A stretch of 64,000 bases of DNA from Alcanivorax sp. 1008 (GTDB taxonomy: Bacteria; Pseudomonadota; Gammaproteobacteria; Pseudomonadales; Alcanivoracaceae): NCBI RefSeq assembly GCF_020667895.1, contig NZ_JAFMPS010000001.1:124001-188000 (forward strand). The letters run 5' to 3'. Shown piece after piece: positions 22,605 through 38,255 of the stretch. The notes below the pieces were generated by a model, which did not search any database, was not told where the DNA came from, and saw only the letters and a program-made list of their open reading frames with translations. Each line of letters starts with the position of its first letter. The stretch's first letter is position 1. Both the position numbers and the translations under genes were made by a program.

Positions 22605-22826
22605 AAATCTATGGCGAGGTAGGCTGGTATTTACCATAAGGCGGATACTGGCGGCTCTGATATGACGCTATGGCTATTTGCTTGGCCCATGTGAAATATC
22701 GCTATCTGGCCGCTTATGCTTTGACAGCAATGGCGTTCTCATGGAGACTTGCCCCTTATTGCTTGGCAATTTGCACATAATATTCTTGGGAATGCTTTGA
22801 AAAAAACTCCTGAAACAAAATCAGGG

Positions 22827-23255
22827 ATGCCCATAGGTTCGTCCCAATCCGATGAGTTGTCAGCTGAGTTTCCTCAGGGAGAGCCCAAAGCGGCGCTGAT
22901 ATATTTTATTGTTCCTCTGATGCTGCTGTTCTCTAGCGCCATTATGGCGACAGCCTGGCTTGGCCATTTGCGTTTTAAGGAAGATCTGACCTTCTTGATG
23001 GCGACGCTTTTTGCCTGGCTGCTGGTGCTTCCGGAGTATGCGCTTAATATTCTTGCGTTGCGTCTTGGTTATCGAAAGTTCACCGGCGGGCAGATGGGAG
23101 CGTTCAGGCTATGCACCGGTGTTGTCGCTATCGCCTTTGTTTCCCATTATGTGTTGGGTGAGGAGCTAACCACCCAGAAGTTGCTAGGCTTTGCGGTTAT
23201 GGCTCTTTCAATGATCCTTATATCAAGCTCCAGTAGCAAAGCGATGGAGCAATAG
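22827..23255 (+). CDS. DUF486-type small DMT membrane protein, copy 1
   Basis: About 142 residues with four hydrophobic segments: LIYFIVPLMLLFSSAIMATA, a segment around LMATLFAWLLVLPEYALNIL, CTGVVAIAFVSHYVL and LGFAVMALSMILI. This is the layout of DUF486 proteins, short members of the drug/metabolite transporter clan that probably act as dimers. The start is uncertain: TTG 22749 or 22797 would add an N-terminal polar extension. Substrate unknown. The paralogue follows after 3 bases. Confidence 0.65.
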   Translation: MPIGSSQSDELSAEFPQGEPKAALIYFIVPLMLLFSSAIMATAWLGHLRFKEDLTFLMATLFAWLLVLPEYALNILALRLGYRKFTGGQMGAFRLCTGVVAIAFVSHYVLGEELTTQKLLGFAVMALSMILISSSSSKAMEQ

Positions 23256-23258
23256 CTA

Positions 23259-23591
23259 ATGGTGTTCTACGCAGTCCCACTAATGCTGTTTGCTTCTAGT
23301 CTATTGATGGCATTTGCATGGCTCGGGCATATCCGCTTTCGCCACAAGGGGTTTTTCTTCGCTCTTTGTGTGAGCTGGTTTATCGTGTTACCTGAATATC
23401 TTCTTAATATTTCGGCTATTCGCTGGGGCGTTGGCAGTTATCAGCCAAGTGAAATGGCTGCCATGAACCTGAGTTCGGGAGTTGTTTGCGTTGCTATCGT
23501 GGCTAAGGTCTTCCTGGGGGAGCATCTTAATCGTCGCCAGATCGCCGGGTTTTTCTTGATGGGGCTTGGCGTATTTATGGTTGTGCTTTAA
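23259..23591 (+). CDS. DUF486-type small DMT membrane protein, copy 2
   Basis: A 110-residue, four-segment protein of the same family as the gene before it (compare MATAWLGHLRF with MAFAWLGHIRF, and VLPEYALNILALR with VLPEYLLNISAIR). Side-by-side diverged copies of a short membrane protein suggest an obligate heterodimer with opposite membrane topologies, as in paired small multidrug transporters. That is inference. A strong bidirectional terminator follows. Confidence 0.75.
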   Translation: MVFYAVPLMLFASSLLMAFAWLGHIRFRHKGFFFALCVSWFIVLPEYLLNISAIRWGVGSYQPSEMAAMNLSSGVVCVAIVAKVFLGEHLNRRQIAGFFLMGLGVFMVVL

Positions 23592-23610
23592 GCATTCAGA
23601 TTTCTTCAAT

Positions 23611-23642
23611 AAAAAAGGCGACACCTGAGTGTCGCCTTTTTT
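23611..23642. terminator. Bidirectional rho-independent terminator
   Basis: AAAAAAGGCGACAC, loop CTGA, GTGTCGCCTTTTTT: a perfect 14-base stem with T-runs in both directions. It serves the DUF486 pair and the convergent GlyGly-CTERM gene. A near-copy follows the second GlyGly-CTERM gene at 26447. Confidence 0.92.
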
Positions 23643-23670
23643 ATTTTTCTTGCCTGAAACTAGCGCTGCA

Positions 23671-25083
23671 TTAGCGTGCCATGCGACGGCGCAGCATAGC
23701 TGCACCCAGCATTAGCAGAAGCGCTGCTGGCGCAGTGCTGCCACCGCTGCTGCCACCAGTGGATACCTTGCCCATGACGATCTTGCTGCCCTCGCCATCA
23801 TTGGCCGCATAGACTCTGGGCCAGAACAGGGCTCCATCTTCCGCCATGGCAGCGGGGTAGGCCTTGTGATAAGGGCTGAAGGTCACAGCATTGGAAGTCA
23901 AGACTTTCGTAGCGCCAGGCTTGCCCGATGTGCTAACCGGAATATGGCTCATGCCACTGCGCATGCTATAAAACACTTGCACAGTGTTGTTCTTCGCCAT
24001 AAAGGCCTGCGCATACTTAAATGGGCCAAGCTCAGAGTCGCCAACAATCTTTATGGCTGCCATGTCCGCCGCACTGCCGTCCTGATCGTCCAGGGAAGGA
24101 TCGAGTTTGGCGTACATCAAGGTGCCCCCGGATTGGCACTTTGTGCAGTAGACATCGCTAAACGGGGCATTGCGCTTGTCGGCCCAAACCACAGCCATTC
24201 TGTCCTTGCTGTCTGCCATGATGCTGTAGTGTGCTGCATGCGGAGCGTCGCCTACGTCTGTTTCGGCACCCTGATCGGTTGTCAGATTTGTGGTGATCAC
24301 GTTGGTGACGTCAATCAACACACTGCCGTCAGTGCCGTCCAGCATACCGTAGGAAACCGTGCAAAGATTGCCGGTAGTACTGTTGCAGTCCTGAAACACG
24401 ACATGGACATTGCCGTCGCTATCTAAGGCAATAGGGTTGGTGCCATGACCATTTTTATTTACGTCCGGGAATGGCGACATGGGTGCGATTTGTTCAACGA
24501 GTGAGCTGTCTGTTTTGGCGAACGTGCCATTATGGCTCCAGATGTAGACATTATCGCTGCTGTCTAGCTCAATAAACGGATGGTCAAAATCCTCGCTTAA
24601 CGTCACCTCGGCTACATCTTCAATGGTAGCAAGCGCGGGTGCTGTGCCATCTTGCGGCGCAGCAGAAGGATCAAGCTTGATGAGTTGCATGTTGCTGCCG
24701 CGGAAGGAGAACGACACAATAACCTTGTCGTCAGAGGTAACCTCGACATCCGCAGTATTAATGTTGTTTGTGCGATCAGCGGTCAGCTTGACCTCGTCGA
24801 TCAAGACGGTTCCGCTCTTGGATACCATCATGTAGCCAACATTGGAGCCAGTCATGCCGCTCTCTATTAGACCATCCGCATCACCCATGCGGTAGACGAT
24901 GTGGTAGTTGCCATCTGAGTCTTTATCGACGCGGGGACGATCCCGCGCAAATGCGGTGTCTGCAGAAATTTCGGTGTATGCCAGCTCTGCCGCGGATACC
25001 GGCAGTGCAGACAGTGACATGATTGTAGCGGCGAAGCTTGAAGCCAGTATCCCTGCGCTGCCTCTGGGAGATGTGGTTTTCAT
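23671..25083 (-). CDS. Secreted repeat (BNR-like) protein with GlyGly-CTERM tail, copy 1
   Basis: A 470-residue secreted protein with an N-terminal signal peptide (cleavage near ALPVSAAELA). Repeats of the form D-x-DGNxH/YxV/IxF/W (DSDGNYHIVYR, DSSDNVYIWSH, DSDGNVHVVFQD, DSKDRMAVVWAD) suggest a beta-propeller of the BNR/sialidase type. The C-terminus is a GlyGly-CTERM domain: STGGSSGGSTAPA, a hydrophobic LLLMLGAAML and a basic RRRMAR. Rhombosortase should remove this tail and release or lipid-modify the protein at the surface. Start ATG 25083 follows AAGGGGA. Substrate or binding partner unknown; copy 2 lies at 26509. Confidence 0.82.
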   Translation of the reverse strand: MKTTSPRGSAGILASSFAATIMSLSALPVSAAELAYTEISADTAFARDRPRVDKDSDGNYHIVYRMGDADGLIESGMTGSNVGYMMVSKSGTVLIDEVKLTADRTNNINTADVEVTSDDKVIVSFSFRGSNMQLIKLDPSAAPQDGTAPALATIEDVAEVTLSEDFDHPFIELDSSDNVYIWSHNGTFAKTDSSLVEQIAPMSPFPDVNKNGHGTNPIALDSDGNVHVVFQDCNSTTGNLCTVSYGMLDGTDGSVLIDVTNVITTNLTTDQGAETDVGDAPHAAHYSIMADSKDRMAVVWADKRNAPFSDVYCTKCQSGGTLMYAKLDPSLDDQDGSAADMAAIKIVGDSELGPFKYAQAFMAKNNTVQVFYSMRSGMSHIPVSTSGKPGATKVLTSNAVTFSPYHKAYPAAMAEDGALFWPRVYAANDGEGSKIVMGKVSTGGSSGGSTAPAALLLMLGAAMLRRRMAR

Positions 25084-25258
25084 GGTTTTCCCCTTTGAAT
25101 TGAAGCCAAGAACGGCCCTTCACTTAACCCTGTGAAAACCGACATCGGCTGCATTAGCCAGATGACTCTACGGGGCATGGCACCAATCCAGACTAATAAC
25201 ATCGAGCCATTTTGCAACCCTCAAGCATGGTTTGGTGCCGTCTGAGCTGGCTTTAGGT

Positions 25259-25277
25259 GGTAATGATTCTTATTAAC
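25259..25277. promoter_or_regulatory. Possible Fur box
   Basis: GGTAATGATTCTTATTAAC matches 14 of 19 bases of the consensus GATAATGATAATCATTATC. It lies in the gap between the STN-domain gene and the first GlyGly-CTERM gene, about 175 bases upstream of the latter. This is a single weak match and may be chance. Confidence 0.25.
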
Positions 25278-25312
25278 AGAGGGAGTCGGCGACAGTGCCA
25301 AGGGACAGTGGA

Positions 25313-25819
25313 TCAATCTGAATGCAGAGTGCGGTCAGGGGGAGGGTCCATCTGCTTTAGCATGCTGGGCTTCCAGCTCTTGTCTTCCGCCCCACCAGGA
25401 ATGGCTCGACCGCCTCGACGCGTTTTTTGCTGTTGCTGCAAGATACGCTGCTGCCTCGCATCCTGCTCTGCCAAGGATGCCGGGTCCATGTTGCCGTCCG
25501 GCAAAACGTCAATGCTTGCAAGATGATCATTGCCTTCGCTGTCACGCCGCCAGCCGAGGACAATATTCAGCCCTTCCTGGCGGGCTATCTGGTCCATTGC
25601 CCGCTGCAGGGGCATATTCTTAATGGATATGGATACCAAGCGCTCCACGTTTGAATCCACCTTGATGGTGGCGCCTGCCTGCTGGGCAACACCGGTCAGT
25701 ACAGTGGTCAGGGACTGCTGCGCTACTTCTATTGCCACGCTGTCGCCATTAACAGTCACCTGCGCATGGGCGACAGAAACTGTTAGCAGCATGGCAGACA
25801 AAATCAGGGGTAATTTCAT
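25313..25819 (-). CDS. Small secreted STN-domain protein
   Basis: A 168-residue protein with a signal peptide (MKLPLILSAMLLTVSVAHA) and a single STN-like domain: VAIEVAQQSLTTVLTGVAQQ, then IKVDSNVERLVSISIKNMPL and ALDQ-like AMDQIARQEG. STN domains occur at the N-terminus of secretins and TonB receptors, but here the domain stands alone and is followed by a Gln/Arg-rich tail. A role in secretion-complex assembly is possible. It is placed after a lipoprotein gene (41-base gap), between the two GlyGly-CTERM genes. Confidence 0.65.
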   Translation of the reverse strand: MKLPLILSAMLLTVSVAHAQVTVNGDSVAIEVAQQSLTTVLTGVAQQAGATIKVDSNVERLVSISIKNMPLQRAMDQIARQEGLNIVLGWRRDSEGNDHLASIDVLPDGNMDPASLAEQDARQQRILQQQQKTRRGGRAIPGGAEDKSWKPSMLKQMDPPPDRTLHSD

Positions 25820-25860
25820 TTATTGCTCCAACTACATGTCCGTGTACATATCCGTGCCCA

Positions 25861-26388
25861 TTACTCCGCTTGCTCAGAGGAACTGAATCGAATCTCCCGG
25901 ATTTCCCGGGTAACGGTGATATAAGCACCGCCCTGCTGCCTGACCAGCTTGATCAGGCCTTTGCCGGTCAGTACTGCCAAGCCGGGTTGGTCCGCCAGCT
26001 GGGCTTGATCCAGTACAAGCTCAGGGCCAGTGCAAGGCGCGAGGGTCACCGTATCGGCGTTATACTGCGCCATCATGCCGGTCAGGTCTGTGGCCGGACG
26101 AGGGTTCTCGCCCAAGTCGATATCTTGACTTTCAAACCCCTTGAAGAACTCCTTCGGTGGGAAATACTCCACACCCTGTCCTGTCACCGGCACCACGTTC
26201 AAGTGCGAGCCGCACTTTCCCAGCTCCAGCCCCGGCCATACCCGATCACCACTGAATTTTTGTCCCTGCTTGCTGCCATCACCAGAATGGGCCGCAGCAG
26301 CAGGTGTGTCGCTCTCGGCGGGGTCTGAGCATGCTGTCAGAAACCAGGCTGATAGCAAAAATGCCAATAGCTGAAGTGGGCGACGCAT
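25861..26388 (-). CDS. Predicted lipoprotein of unknown function
   Basis: About 175 residues starting MRRPLQLLAFLLSAWFLTAC: a signal peptide with lipobox LTAC, so Cys20 should be lipid-modified. A low-complexity Ala/Asp/Ser linker follows, then a domain with two cysteines (GKCGSH and APCTGP) and a C-terminal strand region ending REIRFSSSEQAE. I do not recognise the family. An in-frame start at 26427 would place the signal peptide internally and was rejected. It precedes the STN protein and may form an operon with it. Confidence 0.65.
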   Translation of the reverse strand: MRRPLQLLAFLLSAWFLTACSDPAESDTPAAAAHSGDGSKQGQKFSGDRVWPGLELGKCGSHLNVVPVTGQGVEYFPPKEFFKGFESQDIDLGENPRPATDLTGMMAQYNADTVTLAPCTGPELVLDQAQLADQPGLAVLTGKGLIKLVRQQGGAYITVTREIREIRFSSSEQAE

Positions 26389-26446
26389 ACATACTTCCCT
26401 GATTAAGATAGAAACGGTGCCTGCCATGCAGACTACCTCAAATAAA

Positions 26447-26474
26447 AAAAGGCGACACCTTGGTGTCGCCTTTT
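26447..26474. terminator. Bidirectional rho-independent terminator (near-copy of the one at 23611)
   Basis: AAAAGGCGACACC, TT, GGTGTCGCCTTTT: a 13-base stem. It is located between the lipoprotein gene start and the end of the second GlyGly-CTERM gene and resembles the terminator after copy 1, as if duplicated together with the gene. Confidence 0.85.
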
Positions 26475-26508
26475 CGCTTACTTCACCTTGCCTGAAACTA
26501 GCGCTGCA

Positions 26509-27948
26509 TTAGCGCGCCATGCGACGACGCAGCATAGCTGCACCCAGCATTAGCAGAAGCGCGGCAGGTGCGCTGCTGCCACCGCTGCTACCACCGCCAG
26601 TGGACACCTTGCCCATGACGATCTTGCTGCCTGCGGCATCATCGGCCGCATAGACTCTGGGCCAGAACAGCTTGCCATCGTCCGCCATGGCAGCGGGGTA
26701 GGCCTTGTTCCAGCTATTGAAGCTCACCGCATTACTGGTCAAGACACTAGAGTCACTCGCTTTGCCTGAGCTGCTGACGGATACATGGCTCATGCCACCA
26801 CGCATGCCGTGGAACACTTGCACGGTGTTGTTGCTTGCCATGAAGGCCTGTGCATATTTGAACGGGCCAAGCTCGGAATCATCAACGACTTTGATTGCCG
26901 TCATGTCCGCAGCACTGCCGTCTTGATCATCGAGGGAGGGATCAAGCTTGGCGTAGAACAAGGTGCCTCCACTACCGCTGACCGCGGTATAGACATCCCT
27001 AGTTGGAGCATTGCGCTTGTCGACCCAAACCACAGCCATGTTGTCCTTGCTGTCCGCCATAATGCTGTAATGCACTGCGTGCGGAGCGTCGCCTACGTCC
27101 GTTTCAGCACCCTGATCCGTTGACAGGTTAGTGGTGATAACGTTGGTAGCGTCAATCAGCACGCTGCCATCGGTGCCGTCCAGCATGCCGTAGGAAACCG
27201 TACACAGACGACCCCTAGGGTCGTTGCAATCCTGAAACACAATATGGACGTTGCCGTCGCTGTCGACCGCAATCGGGTTGGTGCCGTGACCGTTGTAGGT
27301 TACGTCGGTAAACGGCGCCATCGGTGCAATAACTTCCGTCAACGTAGAGTCATATTTGGCAAACTGGCCATCATGGCTCCAGACGTAAACATTGTCGGCA
27401 TCATCCAACTCGATAAACGGATGTTTGAAGTCAGGCCCAACATCAACCTCTGCCTCTTCTGTGATGGAGGCCAGAACTGGCGAAGTGCCGTCCTGCGGTG
27501 CAAGGGAGGGATCAAGCTTAATCAGATACAAGCTGCCGACGCGGTCGGGGCCATCACCACGATCGTCCCTAAAGCCCCAGGAAACGTATACCTTGTCGTC
27601 CGATCCCACCTCGATATCTGCAGTGGTGACGGAGTCGCTGGCCGCATCAGTGGTCAGCTTGACCTCATCGATCAGCACGGTGCCATTCTTTGAGACCATC
27701 ATGTAGCCGAGGTTGGCAACTGTATCCCGCATTTGCACCCCCGCACTCCCGATGCGGTAGACGATGTGATAGTTGCCATCCGAGTCTTTATCGACGCGCG
27801 GGCGATCCCGCGCGAACGCGGTATCGGCAGAAATTTCGGTGTATGCCAGCTCTGCCGCGGATACTGGCAATGCGGACAGTGACATGATCGCAGCAGCCAG
27901 ACTGGCTAGTAGCGGCCCTGCACTACGCTTGATAATAGTGTTCCCCAT
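26509..27948 (-). CDS. Secreted repeat (BNR-like) protein with GlyGly-CTERM tail, copy 2
   Basis: A 479-residue paralogue of the 23671 gene. The signal peptide region (SLSALPVSAAELA) and the tail (SAPAALLLMLGAAMLRRRMAR region) are almost identical, and the same DSDGNYHIVYR-type repeats recur. ATG 27948 was chosen because AAGGAGAACGAC precedes it; an in-frame ATG at 27984 would add 12 residues. The middle of the protein has diverged more than the ends (GFRDDRGDGPDRVGS and DPRGRLC are specific to this copy). Predicted rhombosortase substrate at the cell surface. Confidence 0.82.
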   Translation of the reverse strand: MGNTIIKRSAGPLLASLAAAIMSLSALPVSAAELAYTEISADTAFARDRPRVDKDSDGNYHIVYRIGSAGVQMRDTVANLGYMMVSKNGTVLIDEVKLTTDAASDSVTTADIEVGSDDKVYVSWGFRDDRGDGPDRVGSLYLIKLDPSLAPQDGTSPVLASITEEAEVDVGPDFKHPFIELDDADNVYVWSHDGQFAKYDSTLTEVIAPMAPFTDVTYNGHGTNPIAVDSDGNVHIVFQDCNDPRGRLCTVSYGMLDGTDGSVLIDATNVITTNLSTDQGAETDVGDAPHAVHYSIMADSKDNMAVVWVDKRNAPTRDVYTAVSGSGGTLFYAKLDPSLDDQDGSAADMTAIKVVDDSELGPFKYAQAFMASNNTVQVFHGMRGGMSHVSVSSSGKASDSSVLTSNAVSFNSWNKAYPAAMADDGKLFWPRVYAADDAAGSKIVMGKVSTGGGSSGGSSAPAALLLMLGAAMLRRRMAR

Positions 27949-28258
27949 GTCGTTCTCCTTCTTATTAACCCCAGATAATTTCACCCTAACGCCCCGGTGA
28001 AACGAACACTGATCGCATTCCGTTGCCGGATTAGAGGGGATGATCCTGATGACACACTAGTCCTATTGAACGGTTTTGCAAGCAGTCTTCCTGTATTGAT
28101 AGCTTCTAATGAGAGTGGTTATTGTTTGTGATCTGCTGGTGGGTAGCGCGCTCTACGTGAGGGCAAACAATCAGTACCTGTGGTTTTGTTTGTGCTATTT
28201 TCGTTTGGCGCGCACATTTAACCGCAACAAACATCCAGCGCGGACCTTGAGGGAACCA
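27949..28258. other. Divergent intergenic region, no gene seen
   Basis: A 310-base gap between the second GlyGly-CTERM gene and the EcfT-like gene. It should carry promoters for both directions. An in-frame ATG at 28109 for the EcfT gene was judged unlikely. No riboswitch fold or ModE-type operator was recognised. Confidence 0.5.
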
Positions 28259-29494
28259 ATGACGGCCGGTAACAACCGCAGCACTCTTGCCAAGGTCTAC
28301 TATCTTCTCGGCTTGGCCATAAGCCTGTTCCTGATCGCCGAGCCCTTGTTGCTGGCGGGGCTATTTCTACTGCAGCTGTCCATGTGGTTTCGTTTCAAGC
28401 TGCCCGTGTCGGGGGTGGTTCACATTGCGCGTAAGTTGCGACTGTTTTTCCTGATTATCTTTATAACCTACATGCTCACTGGTACCGGTGAGGACACTGA
28501 TCACTGGCTGGAAGTCCCGGTCAGCTGGCTGCCGGACCTTAGCCTGAGTGGGGCGACTCTGGCCCTGTTGATGTGCCTGCGAGTGATGACCCTGGTGCTG
28601 GCGAGCACCTGGCTGCAGCAGACATCCCCTCCCAGAGCCTTGGTCGTCGGACTACGACACTTGCGTATTCCTGAGAGTGTTGCCTTAACCGTGGACGCGA
28701 CGCTGGCTCTGCTCGGCGGTCAGGACAGAGGTGGTCAAGGCCATGGCAAGGGCGGCGGCAAGGGCCGAGGTAAAGGGGATGGTGAGGGGCGTGGCGACGG
28801 CGGTATAAGCTGGGCTGATATCCGTGCCGGCCGGCTGGCTGCTGTGGATGAGCTGCTGCAGGGCAAGTTTCGCCAAAGTAGGAGATGGCTGGCGGAGCGC
28901 TACCCGGAGCTGCCGCGGGAGCGGCTGCATGATCTGACGGTGGTTCTGGGCGTTAGCCTCACTGTGATGGGGCTCAAGGTCCTGCAAATTCTGCCTGGGG
29001 TGCCGATTGCATCCGGGCACAAGAACATGCTGATTGTGCCGTTGCTGCTGTTCGCTGCCAATGCGACTTATATGCGCTTTGGTGCTCTGGCGGCGGGGAC
29101 CACCACCGGCATAGTTTCTTTTCTGATGGGGTATGGCAAGTTCGGTATTCTGGAAATTGCCCATTTTGCTGTGCCTGGCTTGCTTGCAGATATGCTGATG
29201 CCTATTGCGAGGGCCACCAGTCGTGGCGGCAAATTGCTGCAGTTTGCATTAATTGGTGCTGCTATCGGTGCCGGCCGTTTTGCTGCCAACTTGCTTGTTA
29301 TTGTGCTTGCCGGCGCGCCACAGTTAGCTTTTGTGCTGTTTTTGCCCATGTTGGCTTCACAGCTTCTTTTCGGCACTTTAAGCTGCTTCGTCAGTGTGCT
29401 GCTGGTAAATCGCAATTTTACCGACTCACCGGAAGATCATTCAGACACGCAGCTACTGGCCGCTGACAATAGCCATAAGCGGAAAAAATCATAA
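28259..29494 (+). CDS. EcfT-like permease fused to an S-component-like membrane domain (molybdenum locus)
   Basis: A 411-residue protein in two membrane halves. The first half (about residues 10-150) resembles CbiQ/EcfT energy-coupling proteins: WFRFKLPVSGVVHIARKLRL, LALLMCLRVMTLVLASTWL and PPRALVVGLRHLRIP. Then comes a Gly/Lys/Asp-rich loop (about 158-185). The second half has helices typical of vitamin or metal S components (RFGALAAGTTTGIVSFLMGYG, HFAVPGLLADMLMP). ATG 28259 has GAGGGA upstream. It is 17 bases before the molybdenum storage genes, which suggests metal or oxyanion transport. No ECF ATPase is nearby, so the energising subunit is missing or shared. Fusion status is inference. 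Confidence 0.55.
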   Translation: MTAGNNRSTLAKVYYLLGLAISLFLIAEPLLLAGLFLLQLSMWFRFKLPVSGVVHIARKLRLFFLIIFITYMLTGTGEDTDHWLEVPVSWLPDLSLSGATLALLMCLRVMTLVLASTWLQQTSPPRALVVGLRHLRIPESVALTVDATLALLGGQDRGGQGHGKGGGKGRGKGDGEGRGDGGISWADIRAGRLAAVDELLQGKFRQSRRWLAERYPELPRERLHDLTVVLGVSLTVMGLKVLQILPGVPIASGHKNMLIVPLLLFAANATYMRFGALAAGTTTGIVSFLMGYGKFGILEIAHFAVPGLLADMLMPIARATSRGGKLLQFALIGAAIGAGRFAANLLVIVLAGAPQLAFVLFLPMLASQLLFGTLSCFVSVLLVNRNFTDSPEDHSDTQLLAADNSHKRKKS

Positions 29495-29511
29495 TCCAGA
29501 GGGAATAAAAG

Positions 29512-30351
29512 ATGTCAGAACTGGTGAAGGGGGACGGAAGGACCCATATTTCTAGCGGACTAATGAGAGAAAGTCTTGTTAGTCGGCGCCTTCTCAAAGA
29601 GACCGACTCTGCTTCCGTAAAGAGTATGGTTCCCGATGTAAACATGATCTGTGTGGGCGGGCGTAGCATTATGGACCGTGGCGCCGAAGCCATTATTCCA
29701 CTTGTGGATACGATCGCTAAACTGAATGGCAACCACCGTATGGTTATTGGTGTGGGTGGTGGCGCCCGCGCCCGGCATACTTACTCTATCGGTATTGATT
29801 TAGGTCTGCCGATTGGTGGTCTCGCCCGTATCGTCGGTGGGGTTGAAGAGAACAATCGGGACATTTTGCAATTTCTGCTGGCACCTCATGGCGGTATTAC
29901 TTTCGTCAAGGATCACTTTCAGGATCTGCAGCTGTTCCTCAAGAACGGCATGATTCCAGTGTGCATCGGCCAGCCGCCATACCATTTCTGGGAGCCGCCA
30001 TCGTTAGAAGCAGGGCAGCTGCCGGATAACGGCCCGGATACCGGACTGTTCCTGATGGCAGAAGTAATGGGTGCAATGAGCGTCATTTATGTCAAGGATG
30101 TTGATGGTATCTATACCGAAGACCCTCAGAAGAATCCCGACGCTGAGCTGATCCGCGAGATCACCGCCAAAGAGTTGCTGAAAATGGATTTGCCCGACAT
30201 GCCGATCGAGCGCGAACTGCTGCGCACTCTGGAGAATGCCAGAACGGTGCACCAGATTCAGGTGATTAACGGCCTCAAAATAGACAATCTGGAACGGGCA
30301 TTGAATGGTGAGCTGGTCGGCACCATCGTCAAGTCCAGCCGCGCGAAGTGA
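29512..30351 (+). CDS. mosA: Molybdenum storage protein, alpha-type subunit
   Basis: A 279-residue amino-acid-kinase-fold protein resembling the alpha subunit of the Azotobacter vinelandii molybdenum storage protein, which with MosB forms a hexameric cage that packs polyoxomolybdate in an ATP-dependent way. Matching parts are SIMDRGAEAIIPLVD, VGGGARARHTYSIGIDLGLP, PPYHFWEPP and DTGLFLMAEVMGA...DVDGIYTEDP. GGRSIMDRG is the nucleotide-binding loop. It is followed after 19 bases by mosB. Assignment as alpha rather than beta rests on the closer MosA-like text. Confidence 0.85.
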   Translation: MSELVKGDGRTHISSGLMRESLVSRRLLKETDSASVKSMVPDVNMICVGGRSIMDRGAEAIIPLVDTIAKLNGNHRMVIGVGGGARARHTYSIGIDLGLPIGGLARIVGGVEENNRDILQFLLAPHGGITFVKDHFQDLQLFLKNGMIPVCIGQPPYHFWEPPSLEAGQLPDNGPDTGLFLMAEVMGAMSVIYVKDVDGIYTEDPQKNPDAELIREITAKELLKMDLPDMPIERELLRTLENARTVHQIQVINGLKIDNLERALNGELVGTIVKSSRAK

Positions 30352-30370
30352 TTTAGGGAGCAGTAATAAA

Positions 30371-31195
30371 ATGAAAAAAGACGGAAAAATCTGGATCGAC
30401 GGCATGGATAATGCCCTGTCCGACCAATCGCTTTCTGGTCATGCTATCCGTGAACAGCTTGCTGCTCGCGATACGGTCGCGGTGCTGCCGGACGTATGGG
30501 TTATTAAAATCGGCGGTCAAAGCGTTATGGACCGTGGCCGCGCGGCGGTGTACCCGATTCTTGAAGAGCTGGTTGCGGCAAAAAAAAATGGCGTGAACTT
30601 TATTTTGGCCGCCGGTGGTGGCACCCGTGCCCGTCATGTTTACTCCCTTGGCCTGGACCTGAACATGCCCACCGGCATGTTGGCGCGTCTCGGCGCCAGT
30701 GTGCCGGTTCAAAACGCACGCATGCTGCAGATTCTCACCGCCAAGCATGGCGGCATCATGTGCTATCCGGAGGAGCTTGAGAAGCTGCCTTTCTTCCTCA
30801 ACGCGGGCTGCCTGCCGATTACCTCCGGCATGCCGCCGAATGAGTTCTGGGAGAAGTCACAGGCCGAGGGGCTGATTCCCGCTAACCGTACTGACGCGGG
30901 TGTTTACCTGATGGCCGAGTTCCTTGGTGCCAAGGGCGTGCTCTATATCAAGGATGAGGACGGGCTGTACACCGATGATCCGAAGAAGAACCCGGATGCC
31001 GAGTTCATTCCTGAAACCACCGCCTCAGAGCTACTCAATAATGGTCAGGACGATCTGATTGTGGAGCGCGTTGTACTGGAGTACATGATGCGTGGTGATC
31101 ACATCAAGAAACTGCAAATCGTTAACGGATTGAAGCAGGGACAAATCACCGCAGCTCTTAACGGCGAAGACGTGGGCACCATTATCCGCGCCTGA
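30371..31195 (+). CDS. mosB: Molybdenum storage protein, beta-type subunit
   Basis: A 274-residue partner of mosA in the same fold. Close to A. vinelandii MosB: VIKIGGQSVMDRGRAAVYP, RARHVYSLGLDLNMP, SGMPPNEFWEKS, then DEDGLYTDDPKKNPDAEF and NGLKQGQITAALNGEDVGTI. GGGAG precedes ATG 30371. Together with the permease before it and modABC beside it, the pair implies that this bacterium accumulates molybdenum (or tungsten) well above immediate need. No nitrogenase gene lies in the window. Confidence 0.87.
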   Translation: MKKDGKIWIDGMDNALSDQSLSGHAIREQLAARDTVAVLPDVWVIKIGGQSVMDRGRAAVYPILEELVAAKKNGVNFILAAGGGTRARHVYSLGLDLNMPTGMLARLGASVPVQNARMLQILTAKHGGIMCYPEELEKLPFFLNAGCLPITSGMPPNEFWEKSQAEGLIPANRTDAGVYLMAEFLGAKGVLYIKDEDGLYTDDPKKNPDAEFIPETTASELLNNGQDDLIVERVVLEYMMRGDHIKKLQIVNGLKQGQITAALNGEDVGTIIRA

Positions 31196-31227
31196 GTATG
31201 TTGCTCGTTTAGCTATGTCGGAGCGAA

Positions 31228-31800
31228 CTAATCTTCGCTCCGACGTTGGCCTCCTTGCTTTAATGCCACTTGACTGACATTGCGCATCAAGGTGTGCTCC
31301 ATCCCATCTGAAAGTTCGATCAACTTAAACGCGCCACGGCGGTTAGCGCCAATAAAGAACTGCCTGGTGTCCTGCTGCACTTTATCTACTGGGAAACGAG
31401 CCACGTCACCCTCGCAAGTGACCACTTCGACCACAGTAATATCCGGTGCCATGCCTGCCAGTACGAGCACGTTCACTCCTTGGGTGCTGGCGCGATGACC
31501 CGCATTAAGCGGCTGCACTTCCGGCATATCCTCAAATGCTTGGCTTTGTTTTTGCCATAGCAACTGCTGCCCGGCGTAGAGCGAAAGAGAGTCGCTACAG
31601 TCGGCCTGTTGCTTGCCTTTGTCCTCGCGGTTGCCACCGCTACCATCGCCCTTGTGCGCGACATCTTCTTGTTTCGGGTTGGATTGCTGTGCAGGCGTCT
31701 GAGCTGGCTTGATGGGGCTAACACTGTTCCCGGCCAGCCAGATATAAACGCCAGCGGCAACCAATACTGCGCCCAGCAACACCGCAAATTTAGTTCTCAT
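31228..31800 (-). CDS. Membrane-anchored protein of unknown function, fourth gene of the mod operon
   Basis: A 190-residue protein with an N-terminal membrane anchor (KFAVLLGAVLVAAGVYIWLA), a charged Gln/Lys/Gly-rich linker (about residues 30-70) and a soluble domain outside the membrane. The domain has strands around VLVLAGMAPDITVVEVVTC and FKLIELSDGMEHTLMRNVSQ. I do not recognise the family with confidence. It starts 28 bases after modC, so it is probably co-transcribed with modABC and may assist molybdate uptake or sensing in the periplasm. Function is inference from position only. Confidence 0.6.
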   Translation of the reverse strand: MRTKFAVLLGAVLVAAGVYIWLAGNSVSPIKPAQTPAQQSNPKQEDVAHKGDGSGGNREDKGKQQADCSDSLSLYAGQQLLWQKQSQAFEDMPEVQPLNAGHRASTQGVNVLVLAGMAPDITVVEVVTCEGDVARFPVDKVQQDTRQFFIGANRRGAFKLIELSDGMEHTLMRNVSQVALKQGGQRRSED

Positions 31801-31828
31801 GTCATGCCCCTATGTATCACTGTGTTTT

Positions 31829-32947
31829 TCATGCTTCTGCATTGGCGTTATCGATGGCCACCTGCTCGGCGGAGTTTTTTACCGCTACACCTTTTATCTG
31901 GGCAAATAGCGACTGCCCCTGAGTCAGGTTTAGAGCTTCTGCTGATTTCAACGTTACACGGGCCATTAGCTTTGCCTCACCGACGCGCAGCTGGACCAGT
32001 ACATGGCCACCGGATTCGGCTCGCCGGCTCTCCACTACCGCGGGCAGAATATTCAGAATACTGCTCGACTGTGGACGTTCCCGGCATAAACTCACATCAC
32101 TCGCCATGATGCGTAAACGCAACGGACAACAATGATCACCGTGGCGGCCGGGTACAACCACTTCACCGCCAGCAAACTGTAGTCTGGAAAGCTGATAATG
32201 TGGATCGTAATCAAGCACGCGAACATCCAGCACGGTACTAGCCTCGCCACCACCCAGTGTGGGTAGATCGGTACGCATCAGCATGTCGTGTAGCCTGCCT
32301 TGGCCGAGCACTCGACCGGACTGCATCACCACCAGGTGGTCACACAGGCGCGTCATTTCATCCAGACTGTGGCTGACATACAGCATTGGTACCTGGAGGT
32401 TGGCGTGCAAGCGGTCAAGGAATGGCATGATTTCTTGCTTGCGCCCCGCGTCGAGATTGGCAAGTGGCTCGTCCATCAAGACCAATGCCGGGTAGCGCAA
32501 CAGTGCGCGGGCAATCGACGCACGCTGTTGCTCGCCGCCGGAAAGTTGGGCTGGTTTCCGATCAAGCAAATGACCGATGCCCAGCATATCAATAATCTGC
32601 TCCGGCGAGCTTAGCTCCGGGGAAGGCGCAGAACGACGGCGGCCGTAATTGAGATTACGGGCTACTGTCATGTGTGGGAATAATCGCGCATCCTGAAATA
32701 CAAAGCCCACAGGCCGTTGCCAAGGCGGCACGAAGTTTTCTGAGTCCTGCCATAGTTGGCCATTAAATCCGACGCTTCCACGGGCGTCACGCTCCAGTCC
32801 AGCAATACAGCGAAGCAGGGTGGTTTTGCCGCAGCCGGAGGCGCCAAATATTCCGGTGACACCATGGGAAGGCACCTTGATGTCGACATCCAGAGTAAAG
32901 TCGGGGCGACTTAGCGCCGCCGTTACATGTCCTGCATCAGTTTTCAT
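31829..32947 (-). CDS. modC: Molybdate ABC transporter ATP-binding protein
   Basis: A 372-residue ABC ATPase. Walker A is GASGCGKTT (residues 35-43), the signature is LSGGEQQR (135-142) and Walker B is LVLMDE (155-160). After the ATPase, a C-terminal TOBE/MOP-like region (about residues 290-365, LILPAVVESRRAESGGHVLVQ context) is the part that binds molybdate in ModC. Start ATG 32947 overlaps the end of modB by 11 bases. Third gene of modABC. Confidence 0.93.
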   Translation of the reverse strand: MKTDAGHVTAALSRPDFTLDVDIKVPSHGVTGIFGASGCGKTTLLRCIAGLERDARGSVGFNGQLWQDSENFVPPWQRPVGFVFQDARLFPHMTVARNLNYGRRRSAPSPELSSPEQIIDMLGIGHLLDRKPAQLSGGEQQRASIARALLRYPALVLMDEPLANLDAGRKQEIMPFLDRLHANLQVPMLYVSHSLDEMTRLCDHLVVMQSGRVLGQGRLHDMLMRTDLPTLGGGEASTVLDVRVLDYDPHYQLSRLQFAGGEVVVPGRHGDHCCPLRLRIMASDVSLCRERPQSSSILNILPAVVESRRAESGGHVLVQLRVGEAKLMARVTLKSAEALNLTQGQSLFAQIKGVAVKNSAEQVAIDNANAEA

Positions 32948-33635
32948 GGCGTAACCTGCCATTGATGAAATACAGCGCAAACATGCAGGTGAAACTGAAC
33001 GCCAACAGCAGGCCGGACAAGACGTGTGCCTGAGCATACTCCAGCGCTTCAACATGGTCATAGATGGCAATGGAAATCACCCGGGTTTGCCCGGGGATAT
33101 TGCCGCCAACCATTAGCACGACACCAAATTCGCCCAGTGTATGGGCAAAGCCCATGATGGCTGCGGTCAGAAAGCCACGGGTGCTGAGTGGCAGGATTAT
33201 CGTAAAAAAAATGTCCAGAGGTCGTGCACCCAGTGTCTCAGCCGCTTCGACAAAGCCGCGGCCGATGCTTTCGAAGGCGTTCTGTAACGGCTGAATAACG
33301 AAAGGCATACTATAAAGAATTGACGCTAGCACGAGCCCGCCAAAACTGAACGTAAGGGAGCTTTCGGTCAGCTTCACCCAATAGCTGCCCACCAAGCCAT
33401 TCGGGCCGAGCAGAATCAGCAGATAGAAGCCGAGCACTGTAGGGGGTAGCACTATGGGAAGTGCCACCATGGCCTCAATAAAGGTTTTTGCGTGAGACCG
33501 GGTGCGAGATAGCCAGAATGCCAGCGGTGTTCCGAGCAGGATAAGGATCGCCGTGCTGATAAGGCCAAGCTTGACCGACAGCCAAAGAGGGCCGAGGCCA
33601 GGCATATTCGCAGTCCAAGAGTTAAAGAGCTCCAT
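32937..33635 (-). CDS. modB: Molybdate ABC transporter permease
   Basis: A 232-residue permease with five to six membrane segments. The cytoplasmic coupling loop EAAETLGARPLDIFFTIILP is the EAA motif that contacts ModC. GKNIPGQTR-like text (GGNIPGQTRVISIAIYDHVE) is characteristic of ModB. It begins 3 bases after modA. Confidence 0.95.
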   Translation of the reverse strand: MELFNSWTANMPGLGPLWLSVKLGLISTAILILLGTPLAFWLSRTRSHAKTFIEAMVALPIVLPPTVLGFYLLILLGPNGLVGSYWVKLTESSLTFSFGGLVLASILYSMPFVIQPLQNAFESIGRGFVEAAETLGARPLDIFFTIILPLSTRGFLTAAIMGFAHTLGEFGVVLMVGGNIPGQTRVISIAIYDHVEALEYAQAHVLSGLLLAFSFTCMFALYFINGRLRHEN

Positions 33636-33638
33636 TAT

Positions 33639-34397
33639 TTATTCAATGCCATATCCGTGAGCCAATATAATGGCTTGCGCCTTCTCACTGGCAAGAAACG
33701 CCATAAATGCCTTGGCGGCTGGATTATTTGCTGACCGCGTCAATAGCACCACCTGCTGTTCGATTTTGCTGTGCAGGGCCTGCGGTACCTGCCAATGGCA
33801 TGTGCCCTCTGGAATATCTGGCAAATTCAGCTGCGCTGCTGCAATCAGGCCCATGCTGGCGCTGCCACTGGCGACAAAATGAAGTGCCTGGGCAATTGAC
33901 TCACCGGTGACGATGCGTTCGGTCAGCTGGTTCTTGTCGAGCCCGATACTGGCAAGAACTTCCTCCGCAGCGACACCGTAAGGCGCGGCTTTGGGGTTGG
34001 CGATGGCGAGTTTGGCAAAATTTTTCGCTCTCAGTTCTGCTTCACAGTCCTTGTCTTGATAGCGCTCATCAACGGACCAGAGAACCAGTCGGCCGGTGGC
34101 GTAGGTACGGCGGGATTCAGGTGCCACCAGTCCGTTTGATTCAAGCAGCGCAGGCCGTTCAATGTCTGCGGAAAGAAAGATGTCAAAAGGTGCACCATGG
34201 CTGATCTGGGCATATAGCTTGCCACTTGAGGAAACGCTAAAGAGAACCTGATGCCCGGTTTCCTGCTCAAATGCTTCTGCGATCTCTCGCGCCGCTTGAG
34301 TGAAGTTGCTGGCAACGGCAACGGTGACTTGTGTGACCGCTGTTGCTGTCTGCGCCACTAGCAGTAGAGCGCCCCAAAGCCAGCTGGATCCGGTCAT
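33639..34397 (-). CDS. modA: Molybdate-binding periplasmic protein
   Basis: A 252-residue solute-binding protein. The signal peptide is MTGSSWLWGALLLVAQTATA, and the mature part starts with VTVAVASNFTQAAREIAEAF, the ModA N-terminal strand that holds oxyanion-binding residues. LFSVSSSGKLYAQI and PFDIFLSADIERP follow, both typical. ATG 34397 has GGGGACAGGG upstream; earlier in-frame starts would bury the signal peptide. First gene of modABC plus the 31228 gene. Confidence 0.95.
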   Translation of the reverse strand: MTGSSWLWGALLLVAQTATAVTQVTVAVASNFTQAAREIAEAFEQETGHQVLFSVSSSGKLYAQISHGAPFDIFLSADIERPALLESNGLVAPESRRTYATGRLVLWSVDERYQDKDCEAELRAKNFAKLAIANPKAAPYGVAAEEVLASIGLDKNQLTERIVTGESIAQALHFVASGSASMGLIAAAQLNLPDIPEGTCHWQVPQALHSKIEQQVVLLTRSANNPAAKAFMAFLASEKAQAIILAHGYGIE

Positions 34398-34612
34398 TCC
34401 CTGTCCCCAAAAAAACGGTCTAGATTGGTTACTATCGCGAAAATGATTCAGTGGCACAAGGCAGTCCTCGGGTGGTCGTATAGCCCCGTCATCTTTGCTT
34501 TCACCCGTAGCAACCCTGACCTGTGACAATTCGCCCCCCGCGCAGGTGAACTAGAGTAGCCTTATATTCAGGGTTGCTAGCTCGCCCATCAGCTGCAGAC
34601 GTTGAGGTCGAA

Positions 34613-35557
34613 ATGGAGTTTAAGGATTACTACGCATTGCTTGGTGTGGAGCCAGAGGCCGATGAGGCCACCATCAAGACGGCATATCGTCGCCTGGCTC
34701 GCAAATATCATCCGGATATCAGTCAGGAAAAAGACGCCGAGGCCAAGTTCAAAGAGGTGGCGGAAGCCTGGCAGGTGCTGAAGGATCCGGACAAGCGGGC
34801 TGATTACGATCAATTGCGCGCCATGCGCAGCCAGCAGGGCGGGCGGGGACCCTTTGAGGCGCCACCGGGCTGGCAGCCATCCGGCGGTGGCGGCTTTGAC
34901 CCTTCTGGTGCCGGGTTCTCTGATTTTTTTGAGTCTCTGTTTTCTGGTGCCCGTCAGGGCGGTCGAGGTGGACCTGCGCCAGGGCGGCGCGGGCGGGATG
35001 TGGAAATAGATCTGCCGGTCTTTCTTGAAGACACGGTTAGCTCTGAAACCAAGCCCATTTCCTTCCGCCTGCCTGAATACAACCAGTATGGTGAGCTGAT
35101 TGGCGAAACCACCAAGAGTCTGAACGTCAAGATTCCCGCAGGGGTTAGCGACGGCGAGCGCATTCGCCTGAAGGGACAAGGCAGCGCAGGTGTTGGCGAT
35201 ATGCCAGCGGGCGATGTGTATTTGCGTATTCGTCTTGTGCCCCATCCACTGTTTGATGTGGAGGGGCATAACCTGATTGTTACCGTGCCGGTGGCGCCAT
35301 GGGAGGCCGCGTTGGGCGCCAAGATTGAAGTGCCAACGCTGGCCAGTCCGATCAAGGTGAGCATTCCAGCCAATAGTCAGAGTGGCAAGAAGCTGCGTAT
35401 TGCGGGCAAGGGTTTGCCCGGCAAGGCGGGGCAGGGCGATTTGTTTGTATTGTTGAAGGTGGTGATGCCGCCGGCGAGCAGTGATGAAATCAATCAGTTG
35501 TGGGAGCAGCTTGCCGAGAAGGCCAGCTTTGACCCCCGTGCGCAATGGAGTCGATAG
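34613..35557 (+). CDS. cbpA: DnaJ-class co-chaperone CbpA
   Basis: A 314-residue J-domain protein that stimulates DnaK. The J domain has HPD at residues 33-35, then a Gly/Pro-rich linker (about 75-130) and two C-terminal substrate-binding domains ([36 protein letters not shown]). There is no cysteine-rich zinc domain, which separates it from DnaJ. ATG 34613 was chosen (TGAGGTCGAA before it). The next gene encodes its modulator. Confidence 0.93.
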
Positions 35558-35559
35558 CG

Positions 35560-35862
35560 ATGGCCTCCGAAGTGGAAGTGACGGTTTGTACCACTGAGCT
35601 TTATCAGCTGGTGGCGATCTCGGATCAGGATTTAGCCGAGCTGGTAGGCCATGGCATTGCCGAGCCACACGACCAGCAGGCTGTTGAATGGCAGTTCGAC
35701 GAAGCCGCCGTAGCGCAGATAACCCGTGCTGTTCGTTTGCGTAGGGAGCTGCAAGTTGACTGGGCCGGGATAGCATTGGCGTTGGAGCTTCTGGATGAAC
35801 TGGAAGAGTTACGACGTGAAAATGGCGCACTGCGGCGACGACTGGAGCGCCTCGAAGAGTAA
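35560..35862 (+). CDS. cbpM: CbpA modulator protein CbpM
   Basis: A 100-residue MerR-like helical protein that inhibits CbpA. The region LYQLVAISDQDLAELVGHGI and AVRLRRELQVDWAGIALALELLDE fits CbpM, with a coiled-coil end (LEELRRENGALRRRLERLEE). ATG 35560 has GGAG 9 bases upstream and lies 2 bases after the cbpA stop. Confidence 0.88.
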   Translation: MASEVEVTVCTTELYQLVAISDQDLAELVGHGIAEPHDQQAVEWQFDEAAVAQITRAVRLRRELQVDWAGIALALELLDELEELRRENGALRRRLERLEE

Positions 35863-35946
35863 ACGGTGACAGGGACAGTCTGCCGGCCGTGCAATCTGAT
35901 GTATTGTTACTGCCTGACTGCACCGGTTAAGGTGCGTTCCGGTTTG

Positions 35947-37779
35947 ATGTTCCGGTTGGATTCCATGCGTCGCTGCCTGTTGCTTTGTGTCGTAATACTT
36001 TCAGGTTTGTCGGTCTCGACGGTTGTTGCCCGGGAGATGGACTTCACGCGTTTGTCTGCTGGCGAAGTTGCCTTCACCGCCCAACGCTCCGAGGCGCCAT
36101 CGGCGCAGCTAAGTTGGCAATCGGTCAATCTGCCATTCTCCGCTGCCGCTGAGCAGACCAGCGGTCAATTCTGGTTTCGGCTTGATCTGGACACAGTGCC
36201 AGAGCAGCATCGTAGTGGCCTGTATATCCAGCATCATGTTTTTGACATTGAGTTGTTCCTGAACGGGACACGCCTGGGTGGCACTACCCGTGCCGATGGT
36301 CTTGAGTCTACCGGCTGGAACCAGCCTTACTTCGAGCGGATTGCCGCCCCCCTGTGGCGAGATAGCGGCAATCAGTTGCTGATCAGTGTTCGCGCCGGCG
36401 AGCCCAATGCGATGTTGTCTCCAGTTATCTTTGCCGAGGCAGGGGCACTTGCCGAGATGCATCGCGCCAAGACCTTCCAGCAAGTCACTATTGCCGAATG
36501 GAGCATGATTGCCTGCCTGATTATGGGCGGGTTTACCTTTTTCGTCTGGTTGCAGCGTCGCGATGACAGTCTCTATTTGCACTTTGCCTTGCTGTGTTTG
36601 AGCTGGTCTGTGGTGATGTTCTATCTGGCGTCTTCGTTCTCGCCATTGCCCCATGGTGTCTGGCTGCGCTTCTCTTACTACTGCGTGGATCTGGCGGGCT
36701 TTTTCCTGTTTATGTTCCTGTACCACCTGATGCAGCTGAATGCGCCTTGGCCAAGACGATTGGCGATACTGGCGGTGATCGGCTCCGGGGTGGCCCTGTT
36801 CAGTATGGACATCCGTCATCATGCGTTGGTAATCACGGTGGTTCATGGGGTGCATCTGGCTCTGGTGCTTTATCTGTTGGCCATCGGTGCATTGCGGGCG
36901 CTGCGTGGCCATGCCCGGGGGATACTCTGGTTTATGCCGGGCTTTCTACTGATAGCTGCATTGGTGGCCCACGATATCAGTGCTTTCTGGTCGGCAGCTC
37001 AGGTGCCCGGTGGATTGCCTGAAGGCACTTTGATGCAGTATGGCTTTGGCATATTGTTGGTGCTGATATTTGCCTACCTGATCCGCACCTTTGTTAAAGC
37101 GCTGGATGAAAGCGAGCACCTTAACACCCAGCTTGAGGCTCGGGTGCGTGATGTGTCGGCGTCACTGGAGCGCAGCTACGCCGAGAACCGGGCGCTGGAG
37201 TTGCATGCCACGGCGCAACAGGAGCGACAGAATATCTATCGGGATCTGCATGATGATGTGGGGGCAAAGCTGGTATCCATTGTTCATGCGGATGCCAGCC
37301 AACGGCAAACCGAGTTGGCCCGTGAGGCGCTGATGTCACTGCGAGAGGCGGTATCGCAGAGCCGTTATGAGTATCGCCAGCTGCTGGCGCTGATGACGGC
37401 GATGGTGGCGGAGATGGAGGTCCGGCTGGTGGGGGCAGATATGAGTTTTCGGTACCACGGCGTGGACTCTTTGCCGGATCAGGATATTGATCCCGCCATT
37501 GGCTATCAACTAAGCCGCATTCTGCGTGAGGTGACCAGCAATATCATCAAGCATGTTGGCCACGGTCTGGTGGAGCTTGATTGCGCCATGGAGCAGGGCA
37601 AGCTAACGCTGACGATTACCGATGACGGTCCGGGCATGCCGGAACAGTCACAGTGGCTCGGTGCCGGGTTGGGCAATATTCGTTATCGAGCGGCAGATAT
37701 CGGGGCGTACGTTAGCTGGCAGAGTAGACAGCCCAACGGTACCTGCTTCCATTTATCTCTTGCCTTGCCGGAAGGTTGA
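35947..37779 (+). CDS. 7TM-DISM sensor histidine kinase
   Basis: About 610 residues: a signal peptide (MRRCLLLCVVILSGLSVSTV region), an extracytoplasmic 7TMR-DISMED2-like beta domain (residues about 40-175, LFLNGTRLGG), seven membrane helices (about 190-400), a coiled coil and a kinase core. The H-box ERQNIYRDLHDDVGAKL (His about 435) is of the HisKA_3/NarX type and the ATP site includes DDGPGMPE and GAGLGNIRYRA. The start is uncertain (35947 or 35965). No response regulator is adjacent, so it is an orphan. The downstream methyltransferase start overlaps or abuts its stop. Confidence 0.8.
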   Translation: MFRLDSMRRCLLLCVVILSGLSVSTVVAREMDFTRLSAGEVAFTAQRSEAPSAQLSWQSVNLPFSAAAEQTSGQFWFRLDLDTVPEQHRSGLYIQHHVFDIELFLNGTRLGGTTRADGLESTGWNQPYFERIAAPLWRDSGNQLLISVRAGEPNAMLSPVIFAEAGALAEMHRAKTFQQVTIAEWSMIACLIMGGFTFFVWLQRRDDSLYLHFALLCLSWSVVMFYLASSFSPLPHGVWLRFSYYCVDLAGFFLFMFLYHLMQLNAPWPRRLAILAVIGSGVALFSMDIRHHALVITVVHGVHLALVLYLLAIGALRALRGHARGILWFMPGFLLIAALVAHDISAFWSAAQVPGGLPEGTLMQYGFGILLVLIFAYLIRTFVKALDESEHLNTQLEARVRDVSASLERSYAENRALELHATAQQERQNIYRDLHDDVGAKLVSIVHADASQRQTELAREALMSLREAVSQSRYEYRQLLALMTAMVAEMEVRLVGADMSFRYHGVDSLPDQDIDPAIGYQLSRILREVTSNIIKHVGHGLVELDCAMEQGKLTLTITDDGPGMPEQSQWLGAGLGNIRYRAADIGAYVSWQSRQPNGTCFHLSLALPEG

Positions 37780-37784
37780 CGCCT

Positions 37785-38255
37785 GTGGCTGTTTTTATCG
37801 GTCTGTATAACCCGAAAAGCCCGACCAATGTTGGTGCTGTGATGCGCGCAGCAGGCTGCTATCAGGCAGATAAGGTGTGCTATACGGGTGGCAGGTTTGA
37901 GCGAGCGGCCCAGTATCAAACAGACACCAGGCAAGTTGTTGACAGGGTTCCACTGCAGCGGGTGGATAGCCTGCTTGAGCAATTGCCTGATGGCATGAAG
38001 GTGGTATGTGTGGAGTTCGCTGAAGGGGCGACGCCGCTTCCCGGTTTTGGTCATCCAGATAGCGTCATATACATATTTGGCCCGGAGGATGGCTCGGTTT
38101 CCCAGGACATCGTCGACGCTGCTGATGAGGTGGTTTTTGTGCCCACCACGGGATGTATGAATCTGGCGGCAGCAGTCAATGTGGTGCTCTATGACAGGCT
38201 CTCCAAGCTGCCATTGAATGTTCACAGTGACGACCTTATAAAATGTTCACAGTGA
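37785..38255 (+). CDS. SpoU/TrmH-family RNA methyltransferase
   Basis: A 156-residue SPOUT protein that would methylate RNA with S-adenosylmethionine. NPKSPTNVGAVMRAAG at the N-terminus and the knot region IFGPEDGSVSQDIVDAAD plus VPTTGCMNLAAAVNVVLYD are the three SpoU motifs. GTG 37785 has GGAAGG 9 bases upstream. The last residues (LIKCSQ) and the stop arise from a 25-base tandem duplication that changed the reading frame, so the C-terminus is probably altered from the ancestral form. Confidence 0.85.
   Translation: MAVFIGLYNPKSPTNVGAVMRAAGCYQADKVCYTGGRFERAAQYQTDTRQVVDRVPLQRVDSLLEQLPDGMKVVCVEFAEGATPLPGFGHPDSVIYIFGPEDGSVSQDIVDAADEVVFVPTTGCMNLAAAVNVVLYDRLSKLPLNVHSDDLIKCSQ

Follow-up and report, generated by a model that had tools for sequence, protein, structure and literature searches.

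In energy-coupling factor (ECF) transporters, EcfT contacts the ATPase EcfA through a coupling part that bears two Ala-Arg-Gly motifs (PMC4820897, PMC11109136), and there are substrate-binding S-components that transport with no ECF module (PMC4820897). Also published are proteins that join EetB (S) and ECF-T in a single chain, and an EetB–FmnA flavin exporter (PMC9973259). Loading of molybdenum into the molybdenum storage protein (MoSto) is ATP-dependent (PMC6448029), and the available part of that paper names no membrane protein as feeding or emptying the cage. Among open-access papers, as covered by titles, abstracts and term counts, we found none that connects an ECF-type protein with a MoSto locus. 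This article describes such a locus, in a 64,000-nucleotide stretch of DNA from Alcanivorax sp. 1008 (contig NZ_JAFMPS010000001.1, positions 124,001 to 188,000), which we call the window. At 28259–34397 of the window, a gene for a membrane protein that resembles EcfT in one half and an S-component in the other stands directly ahead of two genes for MoSto subunits, mosA and mosB, with the molybdate importer genes modABC close by. All seven open reading frames that a preliminary description had placed at this locus, working from the sequence alone, are present where it put them.

On its predicted model, the gene at 28259–29494 (+ strand) encodes a single protein of 411 residues in which a disordered cationic linker joins an EcfT-like half to one that resembles an ECF S-component. 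The assignment draws on the reading frame, CbiQ profiles and fold matches. We modelled the protein with AlphaFold2 on an eight-row alignment (A3) and compared structures with VIA-align and Foldseek. Confidence in the model is moderate, with a mean pLDDT (predicted local distance difference test score) of 71 and a pTM (predicted template modelling score) of 0.68. The EcfT-like transmembrane half spans residues 1–150 (28259–28708, +). Here Pfam and NCBIfam return their sole match to the protein, a weak one to CbiQ (EcfT) at residues 11–145. TIGR02454 matches residues 11–144 with an E-value of 9.5e-9, below its equivalog cut-off of 111.8, and PF02361 (cut-off 25) scored 23.3 bits in one scan and 25, over the cut-off, in another. 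Among the homologues, at E <= 1, TIGR02454 matches all eight and PF02361 seven of the eight (best 2.5e-11). In the model, residues 5–140 superpose on EcfT residues 17–147 of 7nnu_D (Z 11.3, root-mean-square deviation (rmsd) 3.2, 131 residues aligned; VIA-align).

The S-component-like half, residues 217–388 (28907–29422, +), superposes on ThiT 4tkr_B (Z 13.2, rmsd 3.2, 163 aligned; VIA-align) and carries invariant residues to which we return below. Other S-components follow, namely PanT (Z 12.7), BioY (11.1), FolT (10.8) and RibU (10.4), with rmsd values of 3.2–4.2. None of the S-component profiles in Pfam or NCBIfam matches this half, tested alone or within the whole protein, and PF07456 (EetB) gave no match at E <= 10 in the six S-halves scanned, bearing in mind that above about 0.1 most matches are lost to HMMER's filters. 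Where the AxxxA (small-xxx-small) motif of S-component helix 1 would be expected, the homologues read, by eye, [TA]xxx[GT] in 8/8 and strict AxxxA in 0/8. A profile search of the PDB with the fusion family reached EcfT only at E 9.6, beneath Gly-rich noise. Between the halves lies the linker, residues 155–184 (28721–28810, +), modelled as disordered with pLDDT < 50; Lys plus Arg outnumber Asp plus Glu in all eight homologues. The Gly/Lys-rich loop of the preliminary description is borne out by model and homologues alike. So is its EcfT-like half, which is present in the predicted structure and has the TIGR02454 match besides, the S-component-like half being recognized through its fold match alone. 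In the model, then, two halves of one chain match both partners of the same transporter class, with independent profile support for the EcfT half.

The ATPase-coupling region of EcfT appears to have been shortened, with the linker in its place. Four of the five EcfT rows from VIA-align end at residue 147–148, before the coupling part, and in the alignment, judged by eye, the linker occupies the expected start of that part. After the linker we could make out, again by eye, one degenerate motif with an invariant G191 and a variable Arg; the second motif was not seen. Loss of the ATPase-coupling part is tentatively indicated by these observations. An ECF ATPase, which the preliminary description gave as lacking, is absent over the TIGR04521 cut-off from the whole of its own genome: none of 53 ABC-ATPase matches passes it, the best reaching 167 of the 330 bits required by this, the sole ECF-ATPase model run. 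Nor does the genome hold a second CbiQ-family match. An ABC ATPase such as ModC might still be borrowed to energize the fusion. The window has a modC gene at this locus, as do five of the seven other fusion loci, ModC matches the ECF ATPase profile below cut-off (126 of 330 bits), and one EcfT row, 8bms_C, extends to residue 226 (Z 10.6, rmsd 6.4) and into the coupling domain, of which a remnant is possible. We nevertheless think borrowing very unlikely: the EcfA-contacting arginine motifs are, by eye, not conserved, ModC belongs to the ModB system, and the flanks of the planctomycete locus introduced below contain no modC match of at least 80 bits.

Fusion, mosA-like and mosB-like genes stand in that order on the + strand, separated by 17 and 19 bases. 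The product of the mosA-like gene (29512–30351) matches MoSto beta in the PDB at E 6e-53 and alpha at 1e-48, and that of the mosB-like gene (30371–31195) matches beta at 8e-71; a tree supports both assignments. Their next PDB matches after MoSto are distant amino-acid-kinase relatives (E 6e-8 and 7e-9). The window MosB is 99% identical to MosB of an Alcanivoracaceae metagenome-assembled genome (MAG). In an alignment with MoSto the cage residues appear partly different; some of the ligand positions checked do not fit the numbering.

A MosB scan of genome contigs gave 168 matching stretches, and our mosAB counts refer to the 80 best of these, each from a separate locus. Because several of these loci lie on short contigs, absence from a locus means absence from the flanking sequence on the contig. 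The fusion adjoins mosAB in seven of the 80, six of them gammaproteobacterial and one from a planctomycete, a member of the Isosphaeraceae. Head-to-tail order is kept in the window and in all six related gammaproteobacterial loci, where the fusion–mosA junctions vary between an overlap of 8 bp and a gap of 47 bp; in the Isosphaeraceae locus the fusion stands tail to tail with mosAB, convergent on mosA and overlapping its end. Across 57 genomes, our own included, the fusion occurs in three, the same three that hold close mosA and mosB homologues. Wider searches found it in 1/398 genomes of Pseudomonadota (our own), in 3/390 of the same order (all already counted) and in 2/392 of the planctomycete's phylum. 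We call the link specific because mosAB is adjacent in eight of the nine genomes found with the fusion; seen from this side, the co-occurrence that the preliminary description had suggested looking for is real. Two pairs of assemblies, G001/G003 and G450/G451, were each counted as one genome because their coordinates agree. Left out before counting were G163, G690 and G829, which match in the EcfT part alone (G163 at profile positions 40–151), and three genomes matching in the linker region alone.

The two kinds of host do not share a closely related mosAB. In a tree built on the MosA and MosB proteins of 40 loci out of the 80, the gammaproteobacterial pair forms long, well-supported branches of its own. 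The MosA and MosB encoded beside the Isosphaeraceae fusion group with those of a fusion-less Isosphaeraceae locus (support 99/93 for MosA and 100/99 for MosB), and both pairs are nested in 20-row clades with Acidobacteriota, Acetobacteraceae and others. Long branches meet at two places in this tree, one being where the gammaproteobacterial clades of MosA and MosB join. Because the two mosAB pairs that the fusion adjoins are only distantly related, the pattern would not be explained by a recent transfer of the locus as a whole; an ancient association between fusion and mosAB, with many losses, is possible. The gene is under purifying selection, with ratios of nonsynonymous to synonymous substitution rates (dN/dS), against the related locus L032, of 0.09 for the fusion, 0.06 for mosA and 0.02 for mosB. 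Architecture, gene linkage and selection can all be read from sequence or predicted fold. As for gene order within the pair, the window and L032–L037 have the beta-like gene second, and Azotobacter and the other loci with two distinct subunits have it first.

What might such a protein do? That it is a transporter dedicated to the store is probable. Our more detailed reading, which we put forward as possible rather than probable, is that the fusion is a single-chain ECF-type permease serving the molybdenum store: it would take up molybdenum or tungsten without an ATPase of its own, pulled by MosAB. On the predicted folds, the N-terminal half would supply the EcfT transmembrane scaffold and the C-terminal half the substrate-binding S-component, which may hold a molybdenum or tungsten oxyanion species through the basic residues K240, H254, K255, K/R294 and R340. 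The S-half would topple against the tethered EcfT half and free its cargo inside with no dedicated ATPase; ATP-driven locking of molybdate into polyoxomolybdate clusters by MosAB would then pull net uptake. Judging from the spacing, the fusion is probably co-transcribed with mosAB, so that transport capacity would follow storage capacity, and modABC would stay the ordinary high-affinity importer. The oxyanion cargo, the inward direction and MoSto trapping as the pull are what we infer. Residues K240, H254, K255 and R340 are invariant in 8/8 homologues and position 294 is basic (K or R) throughout; the loop motif PGxPxAxGHK in the S-half alignment is compatible with an anionic cargo without proving one. 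A bolder version would have the MoSto cage replace the ECF ATPases altogether, the fusion docking MosAB via the linker and passing molybdate in, with ATP hydrolysis by the cage as the motor. To this we give little credence; if true, it would be a storage-driven transporter without any ABC ATPase.

Transport might also run the other way. Given the published EetB–FmnA exporter and EetB–ECF-T fusions, both export and an organic cargo have to be taken seriously as rivals to uptake pulled by the store. For export, which the preliminary description had also raised, the fusion would be a relief valve, releasing molybdate or tungstate when the store overflows or is emptied. ModABC already covers import, and S-components can work outward, as the Listeria EetB–FmnA ECF complex does with FAD (PMC9973259). 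The ninth fusion genome, the planctomycete G642, has the fusion gene divergent to a gene for an ArsB-like permease (L136:2534–3841, −; PF02040, 179.6 bits). Yet the published exporter needs EcfA/EcfA', of which our own genome holds none over the cut-off, and we regard a relief valve as unlikely. More doubtful still is a role outside transport, the fusion serving as a membrane anchor or sensor that localizes the MoSto cage with its S-fold frozen. S-component folds do occur as receptors (PMC11109136) and the coupling region looks degenerate, but no signalling domain is seen in the sequence or the model, and across two phyla the S-half keeps a loop motif and further residues unchanged.

Several observations weigh against the permease we propose. 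A general role is opposed by how many mosAB loci lack the gene: 73 of the 80, that of Azotobacter included, have no fusion in their flanks, and a whole-genome search of 46 of the 80 mosAB genomes found it in seven and not in 39. MoSto therefore works without it. The assembly of G642 contains no MosB match at E <= 1e-10, its fusion being a two-piece match up to profile position 281 of 406 that ends with the contig. ModABC, at the same locus, already imports molybdate, and the coupling-domain remnant hinted at by 8bms_C would sit awkwardly with loss of ATPase coupling. Acidic residues, E299 and D311, are as invariant in the S-half (8/8) as the basic ones. Foldseek returned nothing with an E-value below 0.1 for the fusion model (best 0.16, its first hit titled S-component), and with VIA-align helical proteins below a Z of about 13 can share a mere common arrangement; the fold matches next in rank are ammonia/methane monooxygenase (AMO/pMMO) subunits (Z 9) and glutamate transporters (Z 6). 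Lastly, the fold rows named for a substrate are vitamin S-components, and no metal S-component appears among the 50 rows shown.

This last point leads to the other serious rival, an organic cofactor that the pathway requires (a pterin, flavin, vitamin or nucleotide), carried in place of an oxyanion. The S-component fold matches named for a substrate are vitamin and cofactor types, the published S–T fusions involve a flavin S-component (PMC9973259), and proteins resembling the pterin-binding PruR are encoded in four of the six related gammaproteobacterial fusion loci. On the other side, the fusion stands beside mosAB in two unrelated mosAB lineages, the six S-halves scanned lack PF07456 or any other Pfam S-component match, and no member of the PruR-like family turned up at the planctomycete locus. 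An organic cargo strikes us as rather unlikely.

In the window, the PruR-like protein has 190 residues. Its gene (31228–31800) lies behind modC, at the end of a − strand set convergent with fusion–mosA–mosB, the others being modC (31829–32947; TIGR02142, 428 bits, cut-off 285), modB (32937–33635; TIGR02141, 239 bits, cut-off 183) and modA (33639–34397; TIGR01256, 210 bits, cut-off 62.5). These NCBIfam cut-offs, together with the PDB homology to MoSto, uphold the preliminary description in its two storage subunits and ordinary modABC. Its label of a fourth mod gene for the 190-residue protein had to be dropped, the model being a SUOX-fold, PruR-like domain. No Pfam or NCBIfam family matches the protein, and its profile finds nothing in the PDB at E <= 10. 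In the model a low-confidence helix at residues 4–23 is a possible membrane anchor or signal; the domain at about 71–180 is well modelled, with blocks of pLDDT 80–96. The best comparison is with PruR 7kp2 (Z 10.7, rmsd 3.1, 109 aligned; Foldseek E 2.3e-3), followed by SoxC (Z 9.6), plant sulfite oxidase (8.5) and beta-grasp proteins from 5.5. We considered Cys129, invariant in alignment A5, as a ligand of the molybdenum cofactor (Moco) and rejected it, as it sits in a later strand than the expected Moco cysteine. What we take to be the place of that cysteine, going by motif order and not a residue alignment, is Asn here and Asp in L032. By phmmer, the family occurs in four of the 80 mosAB loci, L032, L033 (twice), L034 and L036, all with the fusion; L035, L037 and L054 gave none. 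On this model the protein is a SUOX-fold companion of the gammaproteobacterial locus type and no part of a transporter. PruR itself is periplasmic and without the Moco cysteine (PMC13259868).

The hosts, too, differ from the familiar ones. The nitrogenase family PF00148 gave no match in the eight fusion genomes tested, most of them MAGs, and 11 matches in the Azotobacter control; molybdopterin oxidoreductases (PF00384) occur in seven of the same eight. The store here would serve Moco (or tungsten) enzymes and not the iron–molybdenum cofactor of nitrogenase, and MoSto in hosts without a detected nitrogenase points to roles outside nitrogen fixation.

An Rfam scan of 22000–38000 at gathering thresholds gave no matches, a palindromic TATATA pattern (as a stand-in for a ModE site) none either, and promoter-like (5 against 4.4 expected) and terminator-like sites (8 against 7.0) stand at chance level. 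A mobile or viral origin of the locus was considered and set aside, with no plasmid or phage matches and, in viral contigs, 26 stretches that fit the pattern, none of them a relative. Beside the fusion, at 23671–25083 and 26509–27984 (both −), lie genes for two paralogous secreted-looking proteins with a Gly-rich, sorting-like C-terminal tail; one reaches 13.9 bits against the GlyGly-CTERM cut-off of 15.5 and the other has no match. Related large proteins adjoin the mos/mod/fusion loci of four relatives (L032, L034, L035 and L037), and a rhombosortase, the presumed GlyGly-CTERM processing enzyme, is encoded at 1357–1992 (+; TIGR03902, 152.8 bits, cut-off 84). Between the paralogues, 25313–25819 and 25861–26427 (−) encode a small protein, its STN match falling under the threshold, and a lipoprotein-like neighbour. 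In L033, L034 and L036 the genes of the 190-residue family also adjoin small proteins of STN-like appearance (by eye); by phmmer, L032 alone matches the window STN protein. Three genes past modA, at 35866–37779 (+), is a 7TMR-DISM histidine kinase. Elsewhere, a family of large proteins lies near mosAB in 16 of the 80 loci (the L038–L059 and L077 group, of which the one scanned, L038, matches multicopper oxidase domains), and one resembling class I methyltransferases in ten (the L043 group). A Pfam-confirmed methyltransferase gene is immediately upstream of mosB at L054:9194–9970.

How, then, does the locus compare with what has been described? Like PruR, the 190-residue protein has a SUOX fold and an N-terminal helix and, judging by motif order, lacks the Moco cysteine where one would be expected. 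It differs in having no PDB sequence match, in its position behind modC, and in its neighbours, which are modC and mosB with no adjacent DcpA/DTB regulator. Because EetB–ECF-T fusions have been published, the fusion principle itself is not new: there as here, S and T components share one polypeptide and ECF parts occur outside classical vitamin import. Our fusion differs in an S-half without a PF07456 match, in the lack of an ECF ATPase over the cut-off, in standing beside mosAB, and in a cationic linker that apparently replaces the coupling region. With the Group I ECF transporters (CbiMNQO, BioMNY and YkoEDC) it shares dedicated S and T parts, an EcfT/CbiQ-like half and an S-component fold, but it is one chain, its A component was not found and its arginine motifs, by eye, are not conserved. 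Solitary S-components such as BioY have likewise been proposed to transport without an ECF module (PMC4820897); the fusion, unlike them, brings its own EcfT transmembrane half. It offers a natural test of whether ECF S and T parts can function in the absence of their ATPases. MoSto of Azotobacter vinelandii, finally, has the same two tandem subunits of amino-acid-kinase fold, to whose alpha and beta chains the window pair is homologous. Here the pair is a diverged, long-branch lineage with the beta-like gene second, in a host without a detected nitrogenase, and it has a fused transporter upstream: a concrete candidate, found near mosAB in two distant lineages, for a membrane protein that would feed or empty the cage.

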